Below, piece after piece: positions 22,134 through 28,544 of a stretch of DNA of 64,000 nt. The notes under the pieces are model-generated. The model worked only from the letters and a program-made list of their open reading frames with translations. It was not told where the DNA came from and did no database searches. Position 1 is the stretch's first letter. Every line of letters begins with the position of its first letter. A program made the translations under genes and the position numbers. This DNA is from Leptospiraceae bacterium (GTDB lineage: Bacteria; Spirochaetota; Leptospiria; Leptospirales; Leptonemataceae), in assembly GCA_026418015.1 (NCBI GenBank), contig JAOACE010000020.1, forward strand, positions 62,001 to 126,000, written 5' to 3'.

Positions 22134-22604
22134 TTAAGAGATTTTTTTTATTTTCTTGTTAAAAAATCCATATTTTCTGTTGAGGGGTAAAATAAAATTT
22201 CGCGAGGGGTCAGAAGTTAAATATCTAATAGGAATATAAGGAATTATAGACATAAGCTTATGTTCTATAACTTCATTGCCAACATAATATTCTTGGTTAA
22301 TTTGTAAGATTGGCATGTTTAAATCATAATTGTAGTATAATTCTACGTTGTTATTAATATCTGTAAGTAAACTAAAAGGAATTTTGCAATATCCTTCGTA
22401 CTCTTTTTTCTTAACTGTATAGCGATATTTGATTGCTAGATATGGTTCATAAAATTTATGATTTTTAATAAAAAGTGTTTCTATTTTGTCGATTTCTGCC
22501 AATAAGACATTACTTTTTTTCTTGTTTAAAAAGACCTTAGCAACAATAATAAAAATCACTACTATTGCTGCTAAGAATATCCAGTATAAATTTATTTCTA
22601 ACAT
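22134..22604 (-). CDS. Single-helix membrane protein, DUF3592-like
   Basis: 156 residues. One clear N-terminal membrane helix (YWIFLAAIVVIFIIVAKVF) is followed by KKK on the cytoplasmic side. The soluble part contains the beta-rich segment AIKYRYTVKKKEYEGYCKIPFSLL and VELYYNYDLNMPILQ. This resembles DUF3592-type domains (V.Y.Y.V.G..Y.G...). The start is one base after the clpC stop, so the gene is the second of the clpC operon. Function unknown; the DUF assignment is tentative. Confidence 0.6.
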   Translation of the reverse strand: MLEINLYWIFLAAIVVIFIIVAKVFLNKKKSNVLLAEIDKIETLFIKNHKFYEPYLAIKYRYTVKKKEYEGYCKIPFSLLTDINNNVELYYNYDLNMPILQINQEYYVGNEVIEHKLMSIIPYIPIRYLTSDPSRNFILPLNRKYGFFNKKIKKIS

Positions 22605-22605
22605 A

Positions 22606-25200
22606 CTATGTTAATTGCCCACTATTTGCTGGTTCAGGATCGGTATTTTCTATCTTAATCTTTTTTAAGGTGATTTTAGAACCTTTCTCTTTCTTTTCTT
22701 TTTCCTTTTTCTCTCTTTCTAATTGTTTTTCTTTAAAGATTTTATCGTATTCATTCCATTCTTTTTCTTCGAATTTCAATTTTTCTTCTTTTTTGCTGTA
22801 AGTAATAAATATTTGAGTAGGTTCTTTATAAGCACCTTCTAAAAATCTATTTGCTAAATAATCTTCTACTTCTTTTTGAATTAACCTTCTTAATGGTCTT
22901 GCACCATATTTCTCGTCATAACCTTTTTCGCAAAAATGTTCTTTCGCTAAGTCATCTAATTCGATTCTGATTTTTTTATCAAAAAGATAATTATTTAAGC
23001 GATTGACCATAATATCAATAATAGATTTGATCTGATCCTTCGTTAAGGAATGGAAAACAATTACTTCGTCAATTCTATTCAAAAATTCTGGGTTAAAATG
23101 TTTTTTTAATGCTTCTAATGCTTTTTCTTTTTTACTTTCTTCTCTTCGAATTTGAGATTCAGAAAAACCTACTTTTCCACTCTTTTGCAACTCTCTTGCA
23201 CCTATGTTAGAAGTCATTATGATAATTGTATCTCTAAAATCTACTCTTCGACCATGTGTATCTGTTAGATTTCCTTCTTCTAATATTTGCAATAAAATGT
23301 TAAAAACGTCTGGATGAGCTTTTTCTATTTCGTCGAACAATATAACAGAATATGGATTTCTTCGAACATACTCTGTTAACTGACCAGCATCATCATAGCC
23401 AATATAACCAGGAGGAGAACCAATCAACTTAGATACTGAATGTGGTTCCATAAATTCAGACATATCTAATCGATGTAGTTTTTCTTCTTTTCCAAAGAGA
23501 AACTCTGCGAGTGCTCTTGCTAATTCTGTTTTACCCACACCGGTTGGTCCTAAGAAAATAAAAGAACCCGAAGGCTTACGAGGATCTTTAAATCCAGTTC
23601 TTGAACGTCTTACTGCACGACTAATCATTTCTATAGCTTCTTCTTGACCAACAACACGTTTTTTTAACTCTTCTTCCATTTTTAAAAGTTTACTTGCTTC
23701 GCTTTCTTCGATTTTTTCTAAGGGAATACCTGTCCACATACTCACAACAGAATAGATATCTTCTTCTCCAATTTGAATCGCATAAGTCGAAAGCTTTTCT
23801 TGCCACTCTTGGATTAGGTTTTCCAATTCTTGTTTTTTTAGAGCAATTTCATCTCTTACTTGAGCAGCTGCTTCGTATTCTTGAGCTTTTACCAAATCAT
23901 CTTTTTTCTTAGTTAAGAGTTTAATTTCTTCTTCTAACGCGATAATTTCATCAGGTCTTTTTGAATTTTGTAATCGAGCTCTTGCACCTGCTTCGTCAAT
24001 TATATCGATGGCTTTATCTGGTAAATGCCTGTCGTTAATATAGCGTACAGATAACTTAACTGCCATTTCAATTGCATCATCTGTGTAATAAACCCTGTGA
24101 TGTTTTTCGAAAGTAGATTTTAATCCTTTTAGAATTAAGATTGCATCATCTTCGGATGGTTCTTTTACATGGATTGGTTGGAACCTTCTTTCTAATGCAG
24201 AGTCTTTTTCTATGTATTTTCTGTATTCTGTAAGGGTTGTAGCACCTATACATTGAATTTCCCCTCGGGCTAATGCTGGTTTTAACATATTCGCAGCATC
24301 AATCGCGCCTTCTGCAGCACCAGCACCAATCAATGTATGTAACTCATCGATAAAGATAATCACATTTCTCGCGTTTTGAATTTCTCTTAAAATTTTTTTT
24401 AAACGATCTTCGAATTCCCCTCTATATTTTGTTCCAGCTACCAAAGAAGCTAGATCTAATGCTACAACTCTTTTATCTAATAGAAGATCGGGAACTTCGC
24501 CATTGGCAATTCGAATCGCTAATCCTTCTACTATAGCAGTTTTCCCTACACCAGCTTCTCCAATTAGTACGGGGTTGTTTTTAGTTCTTCTACATAAAAC
24601 TTGGGTTAACCTAGTTATTTCTGTTTCTCTTCCAATTACTGGGTCTAACTTACGTTCAAATGCCATTTGAGTTAGATCTCGTGCAAATTCGTCTAACGTA
24701 GGTGTTTTATTTTTTTCTGATAGCTGACGCGGCTGAGAAGTAGAAGAAGGAGAGGGATTCGATGCAACGCCAAGGATTCTTAAAATTTCCCCTTTTATGA
24801 CAGAATAGTTAATCTGAAACTGAGCTAATGTTGCACCAACAATATTGTTACTATCTCTTAATAATGCCAAGAGGATATGTTCTGTTCCTACGTAGTTATG
24901 CTTTAATCGCCTTGCTTCTTCTTTGGAATAATCGATAATCTTTTGATATTTATCCGGATTAGGAGATAATTCCAAGAGTAATGCTCCGCTACCTTGTTTT
25001 GCTCTTCTTTCGATTTCTTTTTTTAATTCTTTTAGATCTACTTGTAAGTTTTTTAAAATTTTTATCGCAACTGAATCTTCTTCTCTTAGTAGTCCAAGCA
25101 ATATATGCTCAGGACCAATCATATCGTGTCCTAAACGTTTTGCTTCTTGTTGAGCGTATTCATTCAAAACCTTTTTGGCTCTTTTAGTAAAATCAAACAT
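22606..25200 (-). CDS. clpC: AAA+ unfoldase ClpC
   Basis: 864-residue class I Clp ATPase that unfolds proteins for ClpP. The N-domain has two repeats; both keep the Glu used by B. subtilis ClpC to bind phospho-arginine (E31 in [13 protein letters not shown]107 in [12 protein letters not shown]). The D1 Walker A is [15 protein letters not shown], and the M domain holds a UVR-like coiled coil ([23 protein letters not shown]). D2 has [16 protein letters not shown] and a Walker B ([14 protein letters not shown]). An IGF/VGF-like loop for ClpP docking is KVGFSES, after LQKSG. The tail is unusually Lys/Glu-rich ([19 protein letters not shown]). AAAAGGAGTATC is the ribosome site. The gene lies 101 bases after an McsA-McsB fusion. 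Confidence 0.95.
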
Positions 25201-25245
25201 AATGATACTCCTTTTATAATAATAGCGTTTTAAAATTTATATTTT

Positions 25246-25275
25246 TATATAAATCCATCATTCTTAGATTGTCAT
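25246..25275 (-). promoter_or_regulatory. Possible promoter of clpC
   Basis: Minus strand: ATGACA (25275-25270, 5 of 6 to TTGACA), an 18-base spacer, TATATA (25251-25246). It is placed about 45 bases before the clpC ATG in the gap after the kinase gene. No CIRCE-like or CtsR-like (direct GGTCAAA repeat) operator was seen beside it. Confidence 0.4.
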
Positions 25276-25301
25276 TCATTTTTTTAAACTTATATCCTCT
25301 T

Positions 25302-26435
25302 CTAATAAATTTTCGAATAACTAAGTATCTCATAAAACCAATAAATCAACTTTTTTTTTAAGTCTGATTCAAAATTTTTCATGTCTAAGTAAGGTACATC
25401 CCAACCAATCGTAAGATAATCTTTTATTTGTGAACCTTCTCCCATGTCCCCTCTAATACTATAATTTTTTAGACGTTTAAAAAAATCATTTCTCTGAAAA
25501 AAATATAAATTTTTTATTCGAGATTCATGATTCAGTTTGAACCTTAGATAAATCCTTATTCCACTTCCAGCATTCGATGGGCATGCTGTTAAAAATCCAA
25601 ATTCTGGGTTTACTTGCCATAAAAAAATTGAATCCAATAGTTGATAAAATTTATAGACATAAAAGATAGTTTCGATTATATTTTCGACATTAGTAGAATG
25701 ATTAAAAAAATAGAATGTTTCTACTCTAAAATGATCTTCTTCCCCTACATAGAACCTTGTTAGAAGTTGATTGTTCAATAGCAGAACTTTTAAATTTTGA
25801 TATTCTAAATTATTCTGTATATTCAAATTTTCTATCAGATCAGTTTCTGTAATCTCTAAAATATTATAATATTTTATTAAATTTTTTATAATAAACGAAT
25901 TAGAATTCAATAATATATCGGACAAAAGGTAGATCAATTCCGGTTTTAAGCTATAAGATAAACCTTGAACATTTCTCGTATATCGCATTCGTAAGCTTAT
26001 TTCCCAATCTTTCGTATCGATTGGTACTTCTTGGATGGATTTAAGCAAAATAGGTTGATGTTGATTTTTATTTTGATACTCTTGTAGAATTTCATTAAAA
26101 AGATAAAATCGCGATCTTATTAAGGAATTATTTTTGGTTTCGATGATATATTTTTTAATAGCATGTTTTTCCAATAGATATATTTCGTCCAATTGTTTAT
26201 TCCCAAAAAAGTTTTGTATTTCTTCTCGAAACGTTCGATAACAATTAAAACATCTTAATTTTTTTTCTTTATAAATTTCATCAAATATTGCGCCACAAAT
26301 ACATTTTGTATAATTCCTTAAAGCAAGAGATAATGGAAAAAAAGAATTACAATGTTCACAGTATATCGTAGATTTAGTTAAATCTTCCGTTGGATTAAAA
26401 ACGCTAATGGGTTTGTTACAATTTGGACAAATCAT
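25302..26435 (-). CDS. McsA-McsB fusion: zinc-finger adaptor plus protein arginine kinase domain
   Basis: 377 residues. Part 1 (1-70) looks like McsA: zinc knuckle C3/C6...C26/C29, then CICGAIFDEIYKEKKLRC and CYRTFREEI, matching McsA's second finger (C45, C47, C62, C65; the first pair is CxC rather than CxxC). A helical stretch (90-125) resembles the McsA coiled region. Part 2 (about 140-377) looks like the McsB phosphagen-kinase fold: EISLRMRYTRN (for SSRIRLARN), GEEDH (231-235), FGFLTACPSNAGSGIR with catalytic Cys285, and RGDMGEGS with Glu333. All three catalytic positions known from McsB (Glu of EEDH, Cys, Glu of GEGS) are present. About 70-80 C-terminal residues of McsB are missing, including the RDxxRA phospho-arginine sensor. 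Its ATG overlaps the lolD stop (ATGA). Confidence 0.82.
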   Translation of the reverse strand: MICPNCNKPISVFNPTEDLTKSTIYCEHCNSFFPLSLALRNYTKCICGAIFDEIYKEKKLRCFNCYRTFREEIQNFFGNKQLDEIYLLEKHAIKKYIIETKNNSLIRSRFYLFNEILQEYQNKNQHQPILLKSIQEVPIDTKDWEISLRMRYTRNVQGLSYSLKPELIYLLSDILLNSNSFIIKNLIKYYNILEITETDLIENLNIQNNLEYQNLKVLLLNNQLLTRFYVGEEDHFRVETFYFFNHSTNVENIIETIFYVYKFYQLLDSIFLWQVNPEFGFLTACPSNAGSGIRIYLRFKLNHESRIKNLYFFQRNDFFKRLKNYSIRGDMGEGSQIKDYLTIGWDVPYLDMKNFESDLKKKLIYWFYEILSYSKIY

Positions 26436-27121
26436 TTTACTATACTTTGTAATTTGCCATTGTCTAATTTATATCGTTTAGGTATTTTCTCTGCCAATTC
26501 TCTATCATGCGTAACAATTATAAGGGTAAATTGGAGTTTTTTTTGTAAATTCCACAATAAATCGATGATTTTGTAAGAATTTTCTTGATCTAAATTGCCT
26601 GTTGGTTCATCTGCTAATATGAGCTTTTTATTACCAACTAATGCTCTTGCCACAGTTGCTCGTGCCATCTCGCCACCCGATATCTGAGAAGGATAATAGT
26701 ATAATCGATGAGATAATCCCACTAAATCTAATAATTCTTTTGCCTGTTTTTGAATGTTATCGATAATAACATTTCTTTTTTGCATAATCCATAGAGGCAT
26801 CATCACATTTTCTAGAATGTTGAAGTCGGGAAGCAAATAGTAATGTTGAAAGATAAAACCAATCTTTAAGGCACGAATTTCGTCTAATTTATTCTGTTGA
26901 TTGACATCGATTTTTATGTTATCGATCCATAAATTTCCTTGATCTGGTTTATCGATAATTCCTATGATATTTAGCAAGGTACTTTTTCCAGAACCACTTG
27001 CACCTTCTATGGATATTATTTCTCCTTTTTCTACTTCGAGATCGATTCCATTTAAGACATGAATTTCTTCTCCTTCCGATATGTATGTTTTATAAATATT
27101 TTCTAATTTTACCATAATCAT
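26432..27121 (-). CDS. lolD: Lipoprotein-release ABC transporter ATPase LolD
   Basis: 229-residue ABC ATPase of the MacB/LolD group. Walker A is GASGSGKSTLLNIIG, the Q-loop FIFQHYYLLPDF, the signature QISGGEMARATVARALV (ISGGE in place of LSGGE), Walker B LILADEPTGNLD and the switch His in IVTHDR. It works with a LolC/E-type permease, encoded 2 bases upstream, to lift lipoproteins from the inner membrane toward the outer membrane. Several lipoproteins in this window would be clients. It is translationally coupled to the arginine-kinase fusion downstream. MacB-type efflux or FtsE-like roles are less likely, because the partner is a LolCE-type permease. Confidence 0.88.
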   Translation of the reverse strand: MIMVKLENIYKTYISEGEEIHVLNGIDLEVEKGEIISIEGASGSGKSTLLNIIGIIDKPDQGNLWIDNIKIDVNQQNKLDEIRALKIGFIFQHYYLLPDFNILENVMMPLWIMQKRNVIIDNIQKQAKELLDLVGLSHRLYYYPSQISGGEMARATVARALVGNKKLILADEPTGNLDQENSYKIIDLLWNLQKKLQFTLIIVTHDRELAEKIPKRYKLDNGKLQSIVK

Positions 27122-27123
27122 AA

Positions 27124-28461
27124 CTAATCATTTCTTATAGTTTCTACTGGTTCTAATTGAGATGCTTTTTTTGCAGGAAAATAACCAGCAAAACCACTCA
27201 ATATCATCGTTACCATTGCTATCGATACAATAAAGGATAAATCTGTATTTACAGGTAAATGATCAAAGTAATAAATATTCTTTGGTATTAGATGAATCGT
27301 AGAACATTGATGAAAAACCATCAAACAAATTTGATTCAATAAATCTTCTATAAATTTTATAAAAGTTTCTAAATTTTGAGCTGCAAAGATTCCTAACGTT
27401 CCACCAAACAAACAAGCAAAAAAACCAATTAACATAGAATAAGAAACAAAAAGATTTAGAATCGATTTTGTCGAAAGTCCCATTGCTCTTAACATACCAA
27501 TACTTTTTCGTTTCGATTGAACCAATAAATAGGATGTAACCCATATTCCTGCAATTCCAGCTAAAATCAACAATCCTAATATCATCATCATTAACGTTTT
27601 TTCTAGTTGCAGTGCAGCAAGAAAATTGCCTCTTTCGTCTTTTATCGTAGAAATGGAATATTCGTAAGGATTATCTGGCAGAACTTCTCTTAACTTAGTT
27701 TTATAAAAATCAATGTTATTCAAATCGTTTAGTTGTACTATAATCGAAGTTGTTTGATTGGGTAAATTCATTAAACGCTGTGCAGTAGCAAGAGAAATAA
27801 ATATAAGGTTAAGATCAAATTCATAAAATCCTGTTCGAAAAAAACCCGCTATAATTAAATCTGCCCGTTGAATTTGCATACCTCTTGCAAAGATGCCTCC
27901 TTGTGGGAGAAATACAGTGATTTTATCACCAACTTGCCAACCATAGTATCTCGCCATTTCTCTTCCTATAATTGCAACGTTGGCTTGATTGATATTATGC
28001 AAAAGGGTTTGATCAAAATGTACAAGAGTAGGAAAATCTCTAAGATAATTGTTTTTTAGATCTTCTTCGTTTACTGGAATTGCGCGAATTGCTTTACCTT
28101 CGAATCGTCCTTGAATTTCTAATAGTCCATTTACTAAAATTGAGGGAAAAACAGAACGAATATTATTATTTAATGCATCTTTATTCTTATAAATTGATTG
28201 AATAATTTTATCATAATTTTTTATTGTTTTTTGTGAATTCACAGAAGTAATAGTAATATGATAACCAGAATTCCACAAAGATCGTTTTACTTCCGCTTGA
28301 AATCCATTAAACACCGATAGTACCACAACCATGATAAAAACCATCAAAGACATAAAAAGAAGCGACAGTCTTGTACCAGTATTAAGAATTGTGAGCCTAC
28401 TATGTCCGCGTAGATATCTTAAAGCAATGAAGATTTCTAAAAAAAAATATCTTTTTAACAT
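27124..28461 (-). CDS. lolC: Lipoprotein-release permease LolC/LolE
   Basis: About 445 residues with the LolCE layout. The N-terminal FIALRYLRGHSRLTILNTGTRLSLLFMSLMVFIMVVVLSVFNGF is followed by a large periplasmic MacB-like domain (about 50-290). Three C-terminal helices follow, with the coupling segment RAMGLSTKSILNLFVSYS, and the end reads GYFPAKKASQLEPVETIR as in the family. I chose the internal ATG 28461: an ATG at 28533 would place the start inside the upstream terminator hairpin, and the 24 extra residues are not family-like. One LolC/E gene with lolD suggests a homodimeric permease or a second gene elsewhere. Confidence 0.87.
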   Translation of the reverse strand: MLKRYFFLEIFIALRYLRGHSRLTILNTGTRLSLLFMSLMVFIMVVVLSVFNGFQAEVKRSLWNSGYHITITSVNSQKTIKNYDKIIQSIYKNKDALNNNIRSVFPSILVNGLLEIQGRFEGKAIRAIPVNEEDLKNNYLRDFPTLVHFDQTLLHNINQANVAIIGREMARYYGWQVGDKITVFLPQGGIFARGMQIQRADLIIAGFFRTGFYEFDLNLIFISLATAQRLMNLPNQTTSIIVQLNDLNNIDFYKTKLREVLPDNPYEYSISTIKDERGNFLAALQLEKTLMMMILGLLILAGIAGIWVTSYLLVQSKRKSIGMLRAMGLSTKSILNLFVSYSMLIGFFACLFGGTLGIFAAQNLETFIKFIEDLLNQICLMVFHQCSTIHLIPKNIYYFDHLPVNTDLSFIVSIAMVTMILSGFAGYFPAKKASQLEPVETIRND

Positions 28462-28523
28462 ATAAGTTAATAATAAACATAAATTTAAACAAGACGAAAG
28501 AGTAAAGAAGAATTTAATAAAAG

Positions 28524-28544
28524 AAATCCCCATAAAGGGGATTT
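28524..28544 (-). terminator. Rho-independent terminator of the porin gene
   Basis: AAATCCCC (28524-28531), five-base loop, GGGGATTT (28537-28544). On the minus strand the hairpin starts 8 bases after the porin stop and is followed by TTTCTTTT, so it can stop transcription before lolC. Confidence 0.75.

Follow-up and report, generated by a model that had tools for sequence, protein, structure and literature searches.

Does a single chain that joins McsA-type zinc fingers to an McsB-like kinase core represent a natural fusion, and would such a protein still act as a protein-arginine kinase? The question is raised by an open reading frame, here termed mcsAB, on a 64,000-nucleotide stretch of a Leptospiraceae bacterium contig (the window), which a first-pass annotation made from the letters alone had described as a one-chain McsA-McsB arginine kinase with an intact active site, permanently primed by its built-in activator. 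The best explanation, to which a probability of about 0.6 is given, is that mcsAB encodes a compact natural McsA-McsB fusion, a protein-arginine kinase devoid of the dimerization domain that would be self-activated and would feed ClpCP.

The genes are ordered lolD, mcsAB, clpC on the reverse strand (Table 1), and mcsAB thus occupies the position next to clpC that is also seen in the ctsR-mcsA-mcsB-clpC operon. The ATG of mcsAB and the stop codon of lolD overlap by 4 nt, translational coupling of the two genes being likely, and no terminator-like site was found in positions 25150-26500.

Table 1. Features of the mcsAB locus in the window, and the two clostridial-type single ORFs (positions within their own loci)
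Feature	Position	Strand	Remarks
One-chain McsA-McsB ORF (mcsAB), 377 aa	25302..26435	-	ATG start, uninterrupted
Zinc finger 1, residues 3-29 (C3, C6, C26, C29)	26349..26429	-	McsA zf1-like
Zinc finger 2, residues 45-65 (C45, C47, C62, C65, then Y66)	26241..26303	-	McsA zf2-like
Linker, residues 78-139	26019..26204	-	AF2-predicted helices 82-102 and 104-123; without UVR motif
Phosphotransferase (kinase) core, residues 140-377	25305..26018	-	Homology; McsB dimerization domain missing
GEEDH, residues 231-235; E233 = putative catalytic base	25731..25745	-	Residue alignment
CPSN, residues 285-288; catalytic-type Cys285	25572..25583	-	Residue alignment
RGDMGEGS, residues 328-335 (R328, E333)	25431..25454	-	Residue alignment
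clpC	22606..25200	-	Starts 101 nt downstream of mcsAB
lolD-like ABC ATPase gene	26432..27121	-	Directly upstream of mcsAB; synteny conserved
lolC-like FtsX/MacB permease gene	27124..28533	-	Synteny conserved
Clostridial-type McsA-McsB single ORFs	L028:5860-7254, L080:5776-7164		Dimerization domain kept

An McsB-like core and McsA-like fingers

The kinase half was matched by the ATP:guanido phosphotransferase family PF00217 with an E-value of 1.3e-9 (38.2 bits, against a Pfam gathering cut-off of 22.4), so that the HMM search which the first-pass annotation had proposed as a check did recover phosphagen-kinase similarity. The NCBIfam McsB model (NF053707 and others) gave an E-value of 1e-8, at 34.8 bits a score far under the equivalog cut-off of 500. 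With the single sequence as phmmer query against the PDB, arginine kinase and the McsB structure 8gqd were retrieved at 5-6e-6, while a profile built from alignment A3 matched McsB structures at up to 3.7e-93, a value that adds little alone because most rows of A3 are McsB. Alignment A4, which put McsA finger 2 on the Cys loop of the kinase, was dropped for A3.

Arginine and creatine kinases likewise belong to PF00217 and rank high among the PDB matches of the single sequence, and the product could be pictured as a guanidino (phosphagen) kinase that acts on small molecules instead of proteins. This is highly improbable, however, as McsB NCBIfam models match every fused member scanned (11/11), the best-matching folds are McsB chains, McsA-type fingers stand in place of the phosphagen-kinase N-domain and clpC is adjacent. 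The fold comparison follows the structure prediction that had been suggested alongside the HMM search: an AF2 model of the kinase part only (pLDDT 72.8; pTM 0.73) had four McsB chains as its top PDB matches (probability 1.00; TM normalised to the query 0.46-0.50). In the full-chain model (pLDDT 69.7; pTM 0.57) the fingers and the bulk of the kinase core reach pLDDT values of approximately 70-88, the linker and lid are of low confidence, and the top match, again McsB, has a TM-score of only about 0.36-0.39. The fold match fits the assignment to the McsB family with models of moderate confidence, and it is not independent of the sequence homology because the alignment behind the model is rich in McsB; the accuracy is too low to place finger 2 relative to Cys285.

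At about 25 % identity, mcsAB shares with the McsB proteins of Bacillus subtilis (6tv6/8wtb), Geobacillus stearothermophilus (6fh1) and Staphylococcus aureus (8gqd) the phosphotransferase core, the motifs SxRxRxxRN, EEDHxR, CPxN with the catalytic Cys, GxR and RGxxGEGS, as well as the adjacency to clpC. In an alignment with 66 rows of separate McsB taken from other phyla, conservation was seen for R149, R151, R154 and N155, for E232, E233, D234, H235 (present in 65/66 rows) and R237, for G280, C285, P286, N288, G290, G292 and R294, and for R328, G329, G332, E333, G334 and S335. Of the positions checked, only residue 231 differs, with Gly in place of the Asn of NEEDH; this Gly is common to all but a few of the fused proteins. 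The RMRYTRN, GEEDH, Cys285 and GEGS elements are thus located where the first-pass annotation had placed them. In sequence terms the active site is intact, and few members of the fused family are as canonical in their active-site residues as the 377-aa protein.

Unlike McsB, mcsAB has no C-terminal dimerization/pArg-binding domain and carries zinc fingers in the same chain. Aligned against full-length McsB, the chain ends where the dimerization domain would start, a domain which spans residues 252-336 in S. aureus McsB (PMC12467219). Dimer formation is reported to be required for McsB to reach full kinase activity (eLife 2021, PMC8370763). Because this domain is absent, a built-in activator is coupled here with the loss of the part that normally confers full McsB activity.

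The N-terminal part resembles McsA (8wtb_B, 8gqd_E) in having two Cys4 fingers in the same order, of which finger 2 carries the CY-x-x-F signature. The 377-aa sequence by itself matched McsA weakly (E-values of 0.36-0.47). A profile was also considered that comprised the first ~77 residues of twelve fused proteins, with McsA itself excluded, and its best two PDB matches were McsA 8wtb_B (7.3e-10) and 8gqd_E (2.7e-7), zinc proteins unrelated to McsA following only from 3e-4 upwards. Furthermore, the NCBIfam McsA model matches 9/11 fused members, at best with an E-value of 7.4e-11. Finger 2 is the strong part of the profile match, while finger 1, the cysteines of which are invariant in alignment A5, is only weakly McsA-like on its own, with zf1 of 8wtb_B aligned at only 7.3 bits. 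The third Cys pair (C45-x-C47) takes the form CxC in mcsAB and its congeners and CxxC in most other fused members. As judged from these profiles the two fingers are truly McsA-like, chiefly finger 2, and together with the kinase matches they bear out the first-pass description of McsA-type fingers and an McsB-like kinase in one chain. In contrast to McsA, this N-terminal part is covalently joined to the kinase, has CxC as the first pair of finger 2 and is without the C-terminal UVR motif, no match to PF02151 having been found in the 11 fused members scanned.

Distribution and origin of the one-chain gene

A search of its own order showed the one-chain gene in 18/22 genomes and 12/13 genera of its own family, while no mcsAB match was obtained in the remaining four of these 22 genomes. 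Elsewhere in the phylum mcsA and mcsB can be adjacent and one stop codon apart, and a missed stop or frameshift might in principle have joined two separate genes artefactually. The probability of this is negligible, as the one-chain state recurs in 12/13 genera, which excludes chance or sequencing error, internal stops are lacking, and the fused proteins consistently lack the UVR and dimerization domains.

Among the matches listed from 393 Spirochaetota genomes, those outside the order resemble distinct McsA and McsB ORFs, in many cases adjacent ones whose intervening stop was read through. Full-length separate mcsA and mcsB genes were observed in three genomes of other Spirochaetota families (G058, G053 and G080; loci L014, L021 and L127, respectively), and in L127 clpC is found in the same locus. 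Since these families carry separate mcsA and mcsB, the Firmicutes-style system is common in Spirochaetota. Almost all of the 77 loci fetched from other phyla likewise contain separate mcsA and mcsB ORFs. That the system is not confined to Firmicutes had been missed by the first-pass annotation.

A single ORF was present in only two of the 77 loci, the clostridial L028 and L080. These have fingers and kinase in the same order as mcsAB, but, at 467-476 aa, are longer and retain the C-terminal domain. In a maximum-likelihood tree all 17 Leptospiraceae kinase domains group in a single clade with 100/100 support and a long stem, while L028 and L080 fall in another clade beside a clostridial separate McsB. 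At least two fusions have therefore taken place, only one of which has lost the dimerization domain; on this phylogeny the Leptospiraceae mcsAB has a single origin and the clostridial fusion is independent. The branching order within the Leptospiraceae clade is unsure because many branches are long. The open-access literature searched yielded no description of a naturally fused McsA-McsB, nor of McsB from any member of the Spirochaetota.

Rapid divergence, residue loss and gene loss

The relatives compared include KatS3mg129 (L025 = G003) and SP332 (L026 = G018), both MAGs recorded as 'Leptospiraceae bacterium', and NP120 (L027 = G016), recorded as a Spirochaetaceae MAG. Wherever the flanks of a relative extended to lolC, the order lolC-lolD-mcsAB is conserved. 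The next gene after mcsAB is clpC in 15/17 relatives, the exceptions being L004 and L012, where none was detected up to 1.5 kb away. Identity of mcsAB to its nearest relative, the same-genus L025, is 51 %, against 82 % for LolD, 85-88 % for LolC and 94 % for most of ClpC in the same pair.

Eight core residues (R149, R151, E233, R237, C285, R294, R328 and E333) are all kept in 12/17 members, while five lack at least one (L004, L005, L006, L012 and L017). The losses concern R294 in L004 (R294K), C285 in L005 (C285H), L006 and L017, E333 in L006 and L012, and R328 in L017. The same-genus L005 (G001) has also lost zinc finger 1 and reads HLTN for CPSN, with the arginines and RGxxGEN retained. The sister family within this order has shorter relics (L129, L135 and L136) at the same locus between lolD and clpC; these keep zinc finger 2 and the DEDH and CPTN remnants of the kinase but, unlike mcsAB, have lost R294, the RGxxGEGS loop and zinc finger 1, and are probably pseudokinases of the guanido-kinase fold. 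In G017 (L153) and G005 (L161) lolD adjoins clpC with nothing recognisable between them, the gap in G017 amounting to about 180 bp. This decay of the active site in close relatives had escaped the first-pass annotation, as had the loss of the UVR tail and of the dimerization domain.

The main rival explanation draws on this pattern: mcsAB would be a non-catalytic ClpC adaptor or a decaying pseudokinase, retained because its zinc fingers or McsB-like part bind ClpC, and its kinase site would be a relic that happens to be still intact here. The loss of key residues in several relatives, up to the absence of both Cys285 and finger 1 from L005, the relics of the sister family, the disappearance of the gene from G017 and G005, the very long branches, the absent dimerization domain and the failure to recognise a YwlE all speak for it. 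However, all catalytic and nucleotide-binding residues are kept in mcsAB despite the 51 % identity to its nearest relative, and neutral decay would strike the eight core residues that 12/17 members keep as readily as any others. The decay pattern makes the adaptor or pseudokinase reading credible for the family, but less so for this member, for which it is considered unlikely.

Pathway partners and proposed role

The genome was searched for other components of the pathway. A second PF00217 protein was not found in it, nor was CtsR (PF05848), the repressor of the ctsR-mcsA-mcsB-clpC operon; the B. subtilis control was unmatched for both families. As B. subtilis has both mcsB and ctsR, these absences from the family searches are slightly weakened by the unmatched control, in which the operon may have been masked or missed by the first filter. 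A standalone McsA was not found in the genome either (the UVR matches include ClpC). One candidate, a 197-aa UVR ORF (L140; G000:C13, about 201,350), was rejected because it is without zinc fingers; it resembles a bifunctional-nuclease protein, and its C-terminal UVR motif makes it look like a standalone McsA when UVR motifs are searched for.

The pArg selectivity of the phosphatase YwlE is set by a single residue (PMC5506225). Two low-molecular-weight phosphatases are encoded in the genome, with the P-loops CHGNICRS and CTGNSCRS. The selectivity residue would be a Thr at the Ile/Ser position of these P-loops, and judged by it no YwlE-type phospho-arginine phosphatase was recognised in the genome, an absence that is provisional.

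Two full ClpP genes are present in the genome. The glutamates of the pArg pocket of ClpC are E32 and E106 in B. subtilis (PMC12583610). Their counterparts E31 and E107 are kept in the N-domain of the neighbouring ClpC. The same glutamates are also kept in ClpC proteins of organisms not known to have McsB, and E31 and E107 thus permit, rather than prove, pArg recognition.

For the favoured reading as a self-activated fusion kinase, a mechanism can be proposed by analogy. In the S. aureus complex 8GQD, finger 2 of McsA touches the McsB loop Y147-Y153 and orients the catalytic Cys157 (PMC12467219). Finger 2 of mcsAB would contact and position the Cys285 loop in cis, as the S. aureus finger does in trans. 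The kinase would then phosphorylate damaged or regulated proteins on arginine; the neighbouring ClpC would recognise the phospho-arginine through its N-domain and pass the substrates to ClpP. Sequence and synteny show the homology of both parts, the catalytic residue set, the architecture and the operon position; that the chain phosphorylates protein arginine, is activated in cis, hands substrates to ClpC and is active although the dimerization domain is lost is the most likely inference.

The claim that the built-in activator leaves the kinase permanently primed does not follow. The dimerization domain needed for full activity is absent, growth of B. subtilis is severely impaired when McsB is hyperactive, McsB is subject to inhibition by ClpC, and McsA is sensitive to oxidation, which breaks the McsA-McsB contact (PMC8370763; PMC5506225). 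Given this toxicity and the uncoupling of McsA by oxidation, a tethered activator can still be gated, for example by its zinc or redox state, by ClpC or by oligomerization, and the fused finger could equally serve as a redox or zinc switch.

More tentatively, at odds somewhat short of even, mcsAB may be a single-chain minimal kinase in which the tethered finger stands in for the separate activator as well as for the dimerization/pArg-allosteric domain of McsB, forming part of a spirochete pArg-to-ClpCP tagging route that operates without CtsR or an evident YwlE and is in repeated evolutionary decay. The protein offers a test of whether the McsB dimerization domain becomes dispensable once the activating zinc finger is built in, with the clostridial fusions L028 and L080 as a natural comparison. 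As one soluble chain of about 45 kDa it would furthermore be a handy tool for phosphorylating arginine and for structural studies of activation by McsA. The succession from separate genes to fusion, pseudokinase relic and clean loss would make this one locus a record of the dismantling of a pArg system with ClpC retained. Downstream of clpC, a 156-aa membrane-anchored protein belonging to no Pfam family is encoded at 22134-22604 on the reverse strand, and a counterpart lies downstream of clpC both in L025, at 72 %, and in relatives further removed, at 25 %.
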